64,000 nucleotides of DNA from Heterodera schachtii (lineage: Eukaryota; Nematoda; Chromadorea; Rhabditida; Heteroderidae). The position numbers were made by a program, and so were the translations under genes. The stretch lies in assembly GCA_023374025.1 (NCBI GenBank), contig SIJG01000012.1:2338248-2402247 (forward strand). The letters are read 5' to 3'. Every line of letters starts with the position of its first letter. Position 1 is the first letter of the stretch. Below, in pieces: positions 3,346 through 6,555 of this stretch. The notes under the pieces were generated by a model. The model had not been told where the DNA came from. It worked only from the letters and a program-made list of their open reading frames with translations, and made no database searches.

Positions 3346-3889
3346 TGCAAATTCAAAATATCGAACAAATACAATGTCGGAACTTTACGGTTCCGACTGC
3401 TGACCAAATTGTTCAGCAGTGAGGGAAGAAGTGGGAATTGATCGGGGTTGATGATCATTTTGCATTTCCACTCGTTCCACCCAATTTATCCCCCTCACTC
3501 ATTTGTTCATATGTTTTTTGCCCCAATTTCCCCCCTCTCCCGCCACACAACATGTTTTCCGCCCAAATTAGTAGTTTTTTACCGTAAAATAGAGGGCAGC
3601 AAAGAACACTCCAATGGCCCATCCCACTTTTTGTCCACTTTCGTCAGTTGTTTGTTTGTAATTTTGGCCCAAATGGCCCAATTTTCCTCACGACCCATCA
3701 AGTTTTGTAAATCGTCCCACCGCACGCCCCAGCCAATTTTCGATATAAATGGGGCCCCCAATTGCCACTTAAATCATCTGCCAAGCATTTCCAAAGGCGT
3801 TCCTGCCTGCCTTCAGCACCTGTCCTCCTCCAATCAATGTGCCTCTCTCCATTTGGCCCCAACTGACCAATGCCGCCCAAATTCATTCA

Positions 3890-4110
3890 TCTGACCACCC
3901 CCCCATTTGCTCTGTCTGTCCCTCCTTTGTCTGACCCTTTGTCTGACCCAATTCATATGTCCTTTTGGCTCTGTCCCCCCATTGTCTGTCACTTTGGCTC
4001 TGTCTGACCCTTTGTCTGGCCCAATTCATTTGTCCATTTCCCTTCATTGGCTCTGTCTGTCCCAATTCATCTGACCATTTCTCCCATTGGCTCTGTCTGC
4101 CTCAAATGTC
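3890..4110 (+). repeat. Imperfect tandem repeat, TGGCTCTGTCTGACC type
   Basis: Units mixing CTCTGTCTG, ACCCTTTGTCTG and CCCAATTCATTTGTCC recur five or six times, giving a pyrimidine-rich block within the LTR-like part of the BEL/Pao element. No protein is supported here. Confidence 0.6.
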
Positions 4111-4372
4111 TGTCCGGGTCCATGTTCAATTGACCCGGTCCCATTTTCCCCCCATTCGTAGGGCCACGATCCCGGTGGCACATTTTTGTTGTATTTCCTG
4201 GGTCTAGCCCAGGGTTTAATTACCCAAGTTTGAGGTCCCCGAATAAACATTATTTAATTGTGTGTGTTTGTGATCGTCCATTGCACCCCGACCCACCGAC
4301 CGAGCCCGAACATCCCCTGACCGGACCCCGTGGCACTACCTTGTGTAAATTTTGTGGATACTCTTCCACAAG

Positions 4373-4381
4373 TGGCGCTCC
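4373..4381 (+). other. Primer-binding site of the BEL/Pao element
   Basis: TGGCGCTCC lies two bases after a CA-ending LTR edge and about 500 bases before the gag start, the expected place for a tRNA 3'-end complement. The tRNA species cannot be assigned from nine bases. Confidence 0.5.
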
Positions 4382-4457
4382 TGGGTGGATACTTCTTCCG
4401 CCAGCAACAGCAACAGCAACCGGTGACAAAGGGGGGTGGGAAGCATTCGAAACTGGA

Positions 4458-4732
4458 TAAGTTCGTGCTCTTCGTGGCCGGACTTAGACACATAGAAAGG
4501 GAAGGGGGGAAGCAAAATTTGGGCTTTGTTGGGCACTGTTCGGTCTCCGTGCCAACAGTGACTCGACCAATTACAGTTCGGTCTCCGTGCCAACTGTAAT
4601 TTGACTTTGGGGGTTGTAAGCGTAGGTCTAGGAATAACTGCCTGGTCTCCGTGCCGGTAGTTGTTCAGTTACTGGGCGACCTCCGTGTCCCCAATGACAA
4701 AGTACTGCTTGCTCTCGGTGGCAGCAGTACTT
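4458..4732 (+). promoter_or_regulatory. Array of six covarying RNA stem-loops in the retroelement leader
   Basis: Six hairpins lie between the primer-binding site and the gag start: 4458-4486, 4534-4560, 4569-4601, 4632-4666, 4668-4698 and 4700-4732. Their outer stems are 7-11 bp with unrelated sequences. Each encloses a 13-nt insert that follows one plan: an unpaired pyrimidine, three pairs, and a six-base apical loop CUCCGU or a close variant. Inner pair 2 is G-C in three hairpins, A-U in one and C-G in two, which is true covariation. The non-Watson-Crick stem pairs are G-U on the plus strand, which favours a sense RNA. The location suggests packaging, translation or dimerisation control; this is inference. 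Confidence 0.85.
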
Positions 4733-4768
4733 CGTCGGCGCAGACAAGTCAAACGGCCGACAACGACA

Positions 4769-4791
4769 AACTGCTCGAACGAAAAGCAGTT
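4769..4791 (+). other. Further leader hairpin with a different loop
   Basis: AACTGCT (4769-4775) pairs with AGCAGTT (4785-4791) around a nine-base loop. It follows the six-hairpin array but lacks the CUCCGU loop, so it may be unrelated. Confidence 0.4.
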
Positions 4792-4874
4792 GCCAACAAA
4801 GCGCAGCGAAACGCAAACTGAACAGCAGCAGCAGAACAACTGAACAGCGCAAAGCCCACGGCAAACAACCCACA

Positions 4875-5726
4875 ATGGCAAGCCTGATCCAGAAATGCAT
4901 CACATTCACACTCAAGGCGCTGGATAGTGCCAGAACGACCACGGCACTTTCACTACATCCAGACGCCGACCTCTCAAACTGGGAAAATGCAGTCAAATTG
5001 GAGTCTCAATGCAGTCGCGTCATCAGAGAAGTCCAAACAATGGAGGCACAACTGGACAATCTGTGCGATCTCTCCAACAATTGGATTGACCTGCTAAACC
5101 GTCTTGAAGGAGCTGAAAAAGACAAAGGCGAGAAAGAATACGTCAAATTCGACACGCATGAGAAAATTGCCGAACGTCATGACGCAGCCACAACCAAACT
5201 CCGGGATCTGAGGGATCTCGAAGCAAAGCTCAGTGCCGATGCCAAACTGTGCCGAGGCAGAGCAGAGAGAGAAGCAAGGGCGGATCAGCAGGCAAATCCG
5301 CCACCACAAGCAGCAATGCCACAAATTGCAGCACCAACATTCACGGCACCGCTCTATCAATTCCAGCCAATCCAGCTGAACAAATTCTTCGGCCAAAAGC
5401 GAAAGTGGCCTGAATTCTACGAGACCTTCAAATCGGCCATCGGCAGCCAATCAATCAGCAAAGCACAGAAGCTGAACTTGCTCCGCAATCTTCTGGGCGG
5501 AGAAGCACGGGAACTCATTGCTGGGTTCCGCTTGGAGGACCAAAACTACGAGACGGTCCTCCAGCTGCTGAAAGACACTTACGGCGCCCCTGAAGAGCAC
5601 ATCAGGGCGCTACACTTTGAGCTCGCCAATCTCAAAACGTGCCGAAGTCTCCGAGACACAAAAGACTTCCTGCTTCAGCTCGAGGCGGCATCCCACAGAA
5701 CTTTGCAGAGATCAGTGCAAATCTGA
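4875..5726 (+). CDS. gag: BEL/Pao Gag (DUF1759-like), C-terminally truncated
   Basis: The 283-codon frame starts at the first ATG after the leader. Residues about 1-150 form a charged, helical N-terminal part, followed by a Pro/Ala/Gln linker. From about residue 165 comes a DUF1759 capsid-type region (LNKFFGQKRKWPEFYETFKS, then LLGGEARELIAGF and YGAPEEHI). Gag packages element RNA. The frame ends early at LQRSVQI, about where a deletion has joined it to the protease in another frame; no CCHC zinc knuckle is left. The deletion and frame change imply the copy is dead. Confidence 0.82.
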   Translation: MASLIQKCITFTLKALDSARTTTALSLHPDADLSNWENAVKLESQCSRVIREVQTMEAQLDNLCDLSNNWIDLLNRLEGAEKDKGEKEYVKFDTHEKIAERHDAATTKLRDLRDLEAKLSADAKLCRGRAEREARADQQANPPPQAAMPQIAAPTFTAPLYQFQPIQLNKFFGQKRKWPEFYETFKSAIGSQSISKAQKLNLLRNLLGGEARELIAGFRLEDQNYETVLQLLKDTYGAPEEHIRALHFELANLKTCRSLRDTKDFLLQLEAASHRTLQRSVQI

Positions 5727-6555
5727 GAATGGCATCAACATGCCTGGCACCTCTTACAGTGAAGAGAAGCCAAACGACCAAAACTGCAAGCGATCAACAG
5801 CGATCGAACCGCAGCAGATGTGCAATACCCTCAAAAGCAGGGACACCAGAGCATTGCTAATGACAACAAAGGCCACGATTTTCAATCCGGCACAACCAGG
5901 CCTCAGTATGATGGCAACGGTGTTCATTGACCCTGGGAGCCACCGCTCATTCATCTCAAACAGTGCAGCCAAGCAGTTGGAGCTGACCAACCTTGGAACA
6001 GAAGAATGCTTCCTCACAAGCTTTGGCGAAAGAGAGCCAAAGAGATACGTAAGCGACCGCGTCGCAATCGGCATTCATTGTCCTGACAAAGACAGATTCA
6101 TCTTCAACCTGAACGCGTTGAAGTTCCTACTCAACGAAATGCCGGTACTACAACTGAATGCGGAGGACCACGATGAACTTCAACAGAAGAAGCTTAACCT
6201 GCCAAACGAGCCACGGCAACCGGACATCTTGCTAGGAATGGACGTTTGGCACGAGCTGCATATTCAACCAATTAAACAGTTGCCAAGCGGCTTTACAATT
6301 TGCCAATCCAAAATTGGCAACATCATCAGCGGAAAAGGACGAATCGAACTCAGCCAACCATCCAACGTCTCTTTCGTGATGATGGTCACCATCGAAGAAT
6401 CGCCAAGCAGTAAACCGACACACAAGCAGAAATGCAAACAACATCGAGAGAGTAATGCATTGAGAAGGCACCAAATCAACAAGCTCTTGTCCAGCGCAGC
6501 AAATATAAATGTTAAAGAAAGGGTCCGGAATTTAAGAAATTCAAAATTCCAATAA
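5695..6555 (+). pseudogene. BEL/Pao aspartic protease (DUF1758-like), without the rest of pol
   Basis: In a different frame from gag, this stretch shows a retropepsin-like domain: the catalytic-site region ATVFIDPGSHRSFIS (D-P-G in place of the usual D-S/T-G) and downstream DILLGMD, which matches the conserved I-L-L/I-G-x-D block of BEL/Pao proteases. After about 6490 the frame reads into unrelated AT-rich DNA, so polymerase and integrase are missing. The D-P-G change may itself be inactivating. Confidence 0.75.

Follow-up and report, generated by a model that had tools for sequence, protein, structure and literature searches.

A shared array of six-base-loop hairpins, a candidate Gag-recognition signal, in the leaders of one BEL/Pao retrotransposon clade of Heterodera schachtii

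Gammaretroviral packaging signals (Psi) contain a pair of GACG hairpins, while the iron-responsive element and similar hairpins combine a 5' bulge, a short upper stem and a six-base loop, which is also the plan of the hairpins described here. In Moloney murine leukemia virus (MoMuLV) a zinc knuckle of the nucleocapsid protein (NC) packs the first three bases of UCUG and anchors its G, and nuclear Overhauser effects were seen from the G and the three preceding bases with the oligonucleotides AACAGU, UUUUGCU and CCUCCGU (PMC7599994). For Cer1 of Caenorhabditis elegans, another report describes a 2.4 kb spliced mRNA found with and without the spliced leader SL1, and an 8 kb RNA that is not trans-spliced (PMC3315495). 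Among the titles and abstract openings listed by a literature search, with most subscription journals outside its coverage, there was no account of how BEL/Pao elements choose their RNA and no description of SL1 inside a long terminal repeat (LTR). Here we describe an array of six hairpins in the leader of a BEL/Pao LTR retrotransposon of the nematode Heterodera schachtii, found in a stretch of 64,000 nucleotides (contig SIJG01000012.1 of assembly GCA_023374025.1, positions 2,338,248 to 2,402,247), hereafter the window. The hairpins are genuine: they are common to one BEL/Pao clade and are under constraint as RNA. What they do is a separate matter: we consider it probable, though well short of assured, that the array is a multivalent recognition and packaging (Psi-like) array for Gag, acting through NC, in the genomic RNA of that clade.

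All six hairpins lie on the + strand between the primer-binding site (PBS) and gag, in the BEL/Pao leader to which an earlier note on this DNA had assigned them, and each was recovered at its coordinates with near-perfect pairing. Mean pair probabilities were computed on the RNA running from the repeat region (R) of the LTR to gag, with a variant omitting R and the adjoining unique 5' region (R-U5). Hairpin 1 (4458..4486; 8+3 bp, loop CUUCGU) has a mean pair probability of 0.47 with R-U5 and 0.04 without it; hairpins 2 (4534..4560; 7+3 bp), 3 (4569..4601; 10+3 bp) and 4 (4632..4666; 11+3 bp), each with the loop CUCCGU, have values of 0.97, 0.91 and 0.97; hairpin 5 (4668..4698; eight of nine outer pairs plus 3 bp, loop CUCCGU) has 0.90 with R-U5 and 0.07 without it; and hairpin 6 (4700..4732; 10+3 bp, loop CUCGGU) has 0.91. 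The wobbles at 4640/4658 and 4463/4481, and the change of inner pair 2 from G-C to A-U to C-G, are as first described. So are the six loop sequences, although CUCGGU in hairpin 6 proved to be the minority form, present in 4 of 12 copies of the window's own family (family A), with CUCCGU in the other eight. Two generalizations fared less well. The bulge, said always to be a pyrimidine, is A in hairpin 1 of 4/12 copies and A or G in some units of families C and D; and the outer stems, said to be unrelated in sequence, are for the most part recognizably akin (TACTGNT/ANCAGTA type), the description holding for the stems of family D. The single mismatch, a C.A at 4672/4694 in hairpin 5, is private to the window copy, the pair being intact in 11 of the 12 family A copies. 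The base change at 4694 that breaks this pair also makes the sole upstream ATG of the window leader.

The array is not a product of chance, because three measures all exceed their controls. Across the genome (a 178.5 Mb assembly of 356 contigs) the pattern GGTCTCCGTGCC occurs 68 times, compared with once for the reversed pattern; a loop-agnostic scan of window positions 3376-5000 found five hairpins with one common loop, compared with at most one in 30 shuffles; and the fold of 4440-4760 has a z-score of -2.59, with 1 of 100 shuffles as stable. Rfam gave no match at the gathering threshold across the window, and none up to an E-value of 1 within 4200-4900. To this extent the statement that no named motif matches stands; the loop core does, however, resemble published nucleocapsid sites. 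The UNCG tetraloop hairpin was rejected as a candidate: the bases on either side of UCCG or UUCG are C and U (or A) instead of C-G, and UUUG, UCUG and UCGG also occur.

Arrays were sought in the leaders of other copies and were present there, as well as in six further families. A DNA search found 12 family A copies including the window's own, with leader identities of 95-100%, together with one partial copy (L013), one 107-base fragment (L017) and four relatives at 66-69%. Family B (L014, L015, L016 and L018) has nine units in each copy. Family C comprises at least eight copies; three of them have 7, 8 and 9 units under the plan, L044 reaching 10 by a looser rule. Since its copies L037, L044 and L049 differ by whole tandem hairpin units, the family C array grows and shrinks by duplication. 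Much of the B and F arrays repeats at a regular period, of approximately 38 and 47-51 nt respectively. From the 150 matches listed for the gag domain DUF1759, 22 leader regions were drawn. Six carry a family D array, with loops CUCCGA, CUUUGA and CUUCGA, and one a family E array, with loops GUCCGU and GUCCGA; these seven, and no others of the 22, lead into a gag start of the clade. No array was seen in the other 15, most of which reach no SL1 or PBS and so provide weak evidence of absence. Among 12 further regions chosen by gag kinship, 11 have an array (seven F, two G, one D and one E), and in the remaining one (L098) no array, SL1 or PBS was found. The seven F leaders hold 7 to 11 hairpins each, 63 units in total, with loops mostly UUUUGU or UUUCGU; in the two G leaders there are 3 and 5, bulged on the 5' side, with the loops UUCAAG, UUCCAG and UUUAAG. 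Together these data show that the gag-related families A to G carry arrays of 3 to 11 hairpins wherever the leader is readable. In five near-outgroup leaders no array rose above the null (0/5), nor was there any PBS-like match, so that this absence too is weak evidence. IMG/VR contained no exact match to a unit and no relative of the gag.

A covariance model (R1) built on A-C units and run over 23 sources matched all six units of the window but, among D and E units, just one of each (L079, E 0.0017, in D; L083, E 0.071, in E); it was too narrow, and folding and loop patterns were therefore used. In the loop-agnostic count each D leader yielded 2-3 hairpins where the null reached at most 1-2 (at L085, 2 against 2). 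In family F it gave 1-3 on the sense strand but 4-6 on the antisense strand, where C.A mismatches read as G.U; a relaxed scan of two F leaders found 7 and 11 hairpins against 4. At the D copy L078 the relaxed scan found three hairpins, compared with a null of three.

Leaders and gags have not always traveled together. At C66, C67 and C99 (for example C66:416538 and C67:169365; E copies L083 and L107) an E leader precedes gags with 99% likeness to that of D, while other D gags have a D leader, and leaders have thus been exchanged between elements. The gag N-terminus of A is closer to that of D (72% over 170 amino acids) than to that of B (61% over 317 amino acids), and the A leader aligns with that of B at 66-69% DNA identity; A may be of mosaic ancestry.

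The pairing of the stems has been maintained while their sequence has changed. Across 25 distinct A-C units 98.8% of cells are paired, 7 of 10 pairs have changed on both sides, and two-sided compensatory cells number 44, compared with 9.9 +/- 2.5 in shuffles; when the partners are slid, pairing is only 11.5-70.3%. The covariation sought is therefore evident in A-C, and it is also found in F, where 21 distinct units have 92.1% of cells paired, 7 of 9 pairs changed on both sides and 28 compensatory cells against 9.2 in shuffles, the count of pair types (12) being no higher than in shuffles (12.5). On + strand RNA, which is the sense of gag, G.U cells outnumber A.C cells in the A-C units by 29 to 3 (9 to 3 with the closing pair excluded), in keeping with the earlier claim for the wobbles. 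Because of this excess, the constraint in A-C is on the sense RNA; in F this is less clear. Structured RNA between PBS and gag, as in a Psi of retroviral type, is thus found by both prediction and covariation.

The unit finders used above required particular loop letters (C, U and G at positions 1, 2 and 5 and U; or U, U, G, U), which means that the invariant columns are partly built in. Hairpins with six-base loops between PBS and gag were accordingly recounted with no loop letters demanded. In eight A-E leaders N-U-Y-Y-G-N was present in 45 of 50 hairpins, and U at position 2 with G at position 5 in 47 of 50. For seven F leaders, in which this rule recovers only 16 hairpins, the figures are 12/16 and 15/16; at the family C copy L044, which has no PBS match and was scanned over its whole upstream part, the figure is 9/14; and in the two G leaders all eight hairpins have UU[CU][AC]AG. 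The loop CUCUGU is present in family C. Within this single host the main loop differs by family: CUCCGU, GUCCGA, UUUUGU and UUCAAG.

On the proposed mechanism, each hairpin would present one six-base loop with an unpaired G after pyrimidines (U-Y-Y-G in A-F, UUCAAG in G), the zinc knuckles of the element's own NC would grip that loop, and the several hairpins of each leader (six for the window copy and as many as 11 in F) would confer avidity, so selecting element RNA over host mRNAs. NC binding, packaging and the reading of the loop by knuckle 2 are what we infer. Among the three functions suggested in the earlier note (packaging by Gag, dimerization and the guiding of translation) the first seems the best supported, given the position of the array, the family-specific loop, the U-Y-Y-G core and an NC with three knuckles. 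Three CCHC knuckles are present in two F copies and in a copy of each of A, B, C, D and G; those of the E copy are divided between frames, and in the G copy on C6 no knuckle was found in the stretches read. Comparison of these proteins suggests where loop recognition might reside. Between B/C and G the gag N-terminus is 73-74% identical, the linker matches at 11-12 of 18 positions and knuckle 3 at 11/13, but knuckle 2 at only 7/14, and the loops differ; between A and B the gag is 61% identical, with the linker at 6/18 and knuckle 3 at 9/13, yet knuckle 2 agrees at 12/14 and the loop is the same. Knuckle 1 has no such contrast (A-B 7/13, B-G 7/13, A-G 9/13), and knuckle 2 of F matches those of A-D at 8-10/14 and that of G at 6-7/14. 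Had knuckle 2 and loop evolved as a matched pair, a dissociation like this one among B, A and G would be expected, but it is a single contrast. The element encoding P0003 has CFKCLKPNHRAYAC as its knuckle 2, and a U-Y-Y-G array is predicted for it.

A number of observations weigh against Gag recognition. The link between knuckle and loop comes from one contrast, that of B/C with one G copy, and knuckle 2 of A is no closer to that of F68 (8/14) than to that of G (8/14), despite the U-Y-Y-G type of the F loops. The leaders of E, whose loops are GUCCGW, precede D-like gags. Three knuckles are present in 6/6 outgroup BELs, in which no array was seen, and so an array does not follow from the knuckles by themselves. 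Folding is poor in some contexts for hairpins 1 and 5 and for four of those in the family C copy L044 (0.11-0.14). In F units G.U exceeds A.C by only 11 cells to 6, with nine other mismatches. The loops are no slower to change than the spacers (5 minor cells at 36 sites against 7 at 112) in the 12 A copies, which are, with few changes among them, too alike for a comparison of rates. In MoMuLV, moreover, the hairpins are not bound by NC when isolated, and AACAGU, among the oligonucleotides contacted, is without a pyrimidine run (PMC7599994).

The leaders are also marked by a scarcity of start codons. No ATG lies between SL1 (or the PBS) and the gag start in 33 of 35 usable leaders, whereas base composition predicts 7.4 to 14.3 for those rows in which it was calculated; the two leaders with an upstream ATG are those of the window copy (4694) and L083. 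The count omits L003, L016, L018 and L060 (rows lacking a gag start or SL1, or starting wrongly) and keeps L044 and L080, which were recounted. Ribosomes thus probably scan through the leader, plain scanning being preferred over shunting or an internal ribosome entry site on account of these 33 leaders, and the hairpins would have to be compatible with scanning.

The RNA 5' end of these elements may itself be derived from the host. The exact nematode spliced leader SL1, GGTTTAATTACCCAAGTTTGAG, lies in the LTR of the window copy at 4213..4234 (+ strand), where it is the probable start of R; its 22 nt are identical to the exon of SL RNA genes in this genome, and an AATAAA poly(A) signal, read from the sequence at 4242..4247 (+ strand), starts eight bases after its end. 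SL1 is exact in 28 of 42 clade loci (A 10/12, B 4/4, C 7/8, D 0/7, E 0/2, F 5/7, G 2/2) and has one or two mismatches in eight more, including all seven D loci; it is also found in two BELs outside the clade, L071 and L072. Genome-wide there are 204 exact copies, against none of the reversed pattern. Three sampled genomic SL1 places match RF00198 with E-values of 2e-7 to 5e-7 and 49-51 bits, below the gathering score of 75. Runs of SL1, often at a spacing of approximately 0.6 kb, occur at C9:407312-411730, C9:723958-758778 and C30:302623-334628, one place in each matching RF00198. The junctions after SL1 are copy-specific: L004, L010 and L016 have SL1 followed by TTTGAG and the rest, resembling SL1 spliced to an AG within an older SL1 (CCCAAG|TTTGAG), and L011 is without the AG that follows SL1 in L005. 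Because of these junctions we favor the view that the genomic RNA gains SL1 by trans-splicing and that reverse transcription then fixes it as R; the alternative is that transcription merely begins, from a promoter, at a sequence resembling SL1. That the LTR gained SL1 by capturing an SL RNA gene was discounted, as the bases after the exon differ from those of SL RNA genes. If trans-splicing is the source, SL1 in the LTR would let a retrotransposon obtain its RNA 5' end through the splicing machinery of its host.

A trans-spliced SL1 would make R a sequence shared with host mRNAs, and the array would then supply the specificity that R cannot. More speculatively, the arrays may embody a modular loop code, in which the six-base loop is matched to knuckle 2 of the family's NC and the two switch together (U-Y-Y-G to UUCAAG), letting related elements package their own RNA; we regard this as a tentative possibility, with the balance against it. 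Were it correct, one genome would hold a natural series of matched NC-loop pairs, and what a zinc knuckle reads would be directly testable with natural variants, no design being needed.

Other functions for the hairpins deserve consideration. The partner could be a host RNA-binding protein, for which the array would be a landing site reused by all families and serving export of unspliced RNA, localization or control of translation. Repeated hairpins act as export or control elements elsewhere; the rarity of upstream AUGs implies that translation matters; and a second core, GCTCTCCGTGGC, occurs at 53 places compared with 14 for its reversal, some 33 of them outside the A-C array loci, so that this core may also be in use outside these elements. 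A loop that changes between element families in one host is, however, unexpected for a single host partner. In addition, for the longer unit pattern the 76 matches listed, of 168 exact ones, are all in A-C loci, and two single GGTCTCCGTGCC matches that were examined form no hairpin; we judge a host partner unlikely, if worth keeping in view. Alternatively the array could regulate SL1 trans-splicing or strand transfer, as the prevalence of SL1 among the clade loci might suggest; yet family E (L083 and L107) has the array without SL1, whereas L071 and L072 have SL1 and no array was seen in them, and we hold this to be highly improbable.

Kissing between loops, for genome dimerization or long-range folding, has the precedent that retroviral packaging signals often dimerize (PMC7599994). 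Complements of the loop do occur: one ACGGAG stands just before the PBS in both C copies searched (L050 and L054), and one TCGGAG inside gag in both D copies (L078 and L084). These are, however, single and in different parts of the element, and neither CUCCGU nor the other loops are self-complementary. The search covered copies of A, B, C and D, and in 3/3 A and 2/2 B copies the stretch between the start of R and the locus end held no exact complement of the main loop (ACGGAG), which goes against the suggestion of loop-mediated dimerization for these two families and leaves kissing in general improbable. Finally, the hairpins could be a by-product of tandem repetition, or palindromic protein sites at the DNA level, with no function as RNA. 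That units multiply by tandem duplication, as is apparent from unit numbers in C and regular periods in B and F, is in accord with this. Compensatory two-sided changes far above both shuffles and slid controls, the sense-strand wobble bias in A-C and the recurrence of loops while stems change all argue to the contrary, and we find the proposal hardly credible.

The element in the window is a BEL/Pao LTR retrotransposon on the evidence of its gag and protease domains, LTR and PBS, an assignment at the level of gag and protease, the copy being cut off ahead of reverse transcriptase, RNase H and integrase. Its 5' LTR (TGT...ACA) spans 3375..4370 (+ strand); the left edge is common to most family A copies in alignments, and the 3' LTR match of L070 stops at 4370. 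The window copy's own 3' LTR was not found. The PBS, TGGCGCTCCTGGGTGGAT, is at 4373..4390 (+ strand), two bases past the LTR end. An open reading frame (ORF) of 283 amino acids at 4875..5726 (+ strand), identified from the ORF list, a domain search and copy alignment, is gag (PF03564, DUF1759; E 1.6e-19), and a second ORF at 5617..6555 (+ strand), identified by domain search, has the BEL/Pao protease domain (PF05585, DUF1758; E 1.1e-12), with other repeats from approximately 6503 on. The window copy is without approximately 0.63 kb of gag, at 5683/5684, that other copies have. Copies in the genome match named Gag proteins (Heterodera schachtii, H. trifolii) at 99.8% identity over 492 amino acids and 99.7% over 345. 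Two family A leaders, at C4:401972 and C4:407696, are 5.7 kb apart in the same orientation, and at L003 an LTR start lies approximately 1.3 kb downstream of the gag start.

We return to the described systems with which these arrays may be compared. The iron-responsive element differs from the hairpins here in loop and spacing, and no Rfam match was found. We know of no tandem array of equal-loop hairpins in Ty1 or Ty3. The encapsidation signals of those elements are nonetheless alike in what is proposed here, namely the packaging of LTR-retrotransposon RNA into particles (PMC4974528). Cer1, of the Gypsy/Ty3 group, is likewise a nematode LTR element whose RNA meets SL1, but differs (PMC3315495) from the elements described here, in which SL1 is fixed in the LTR. 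The likeness to the Psi of gammaretroviruses lies in the position in the leader and in a pyrimidine-pyrimidine-G read by a CCHC knuckle, and extends to two of the MoMuLV oligonucleotides, UUUUGCU and CCUCCGU, which are nearly the F and A loops (PMC7599994). There the UCUG sites are in linkers and become exposed after dimerization (PMC7599994), whereas here the core is in the loops of many hairpins, and the elements belong to a different group. The kind of signal proposed here is known from retroviruses; the many equal loops, with a sequence specific to each family, are a new form of it.
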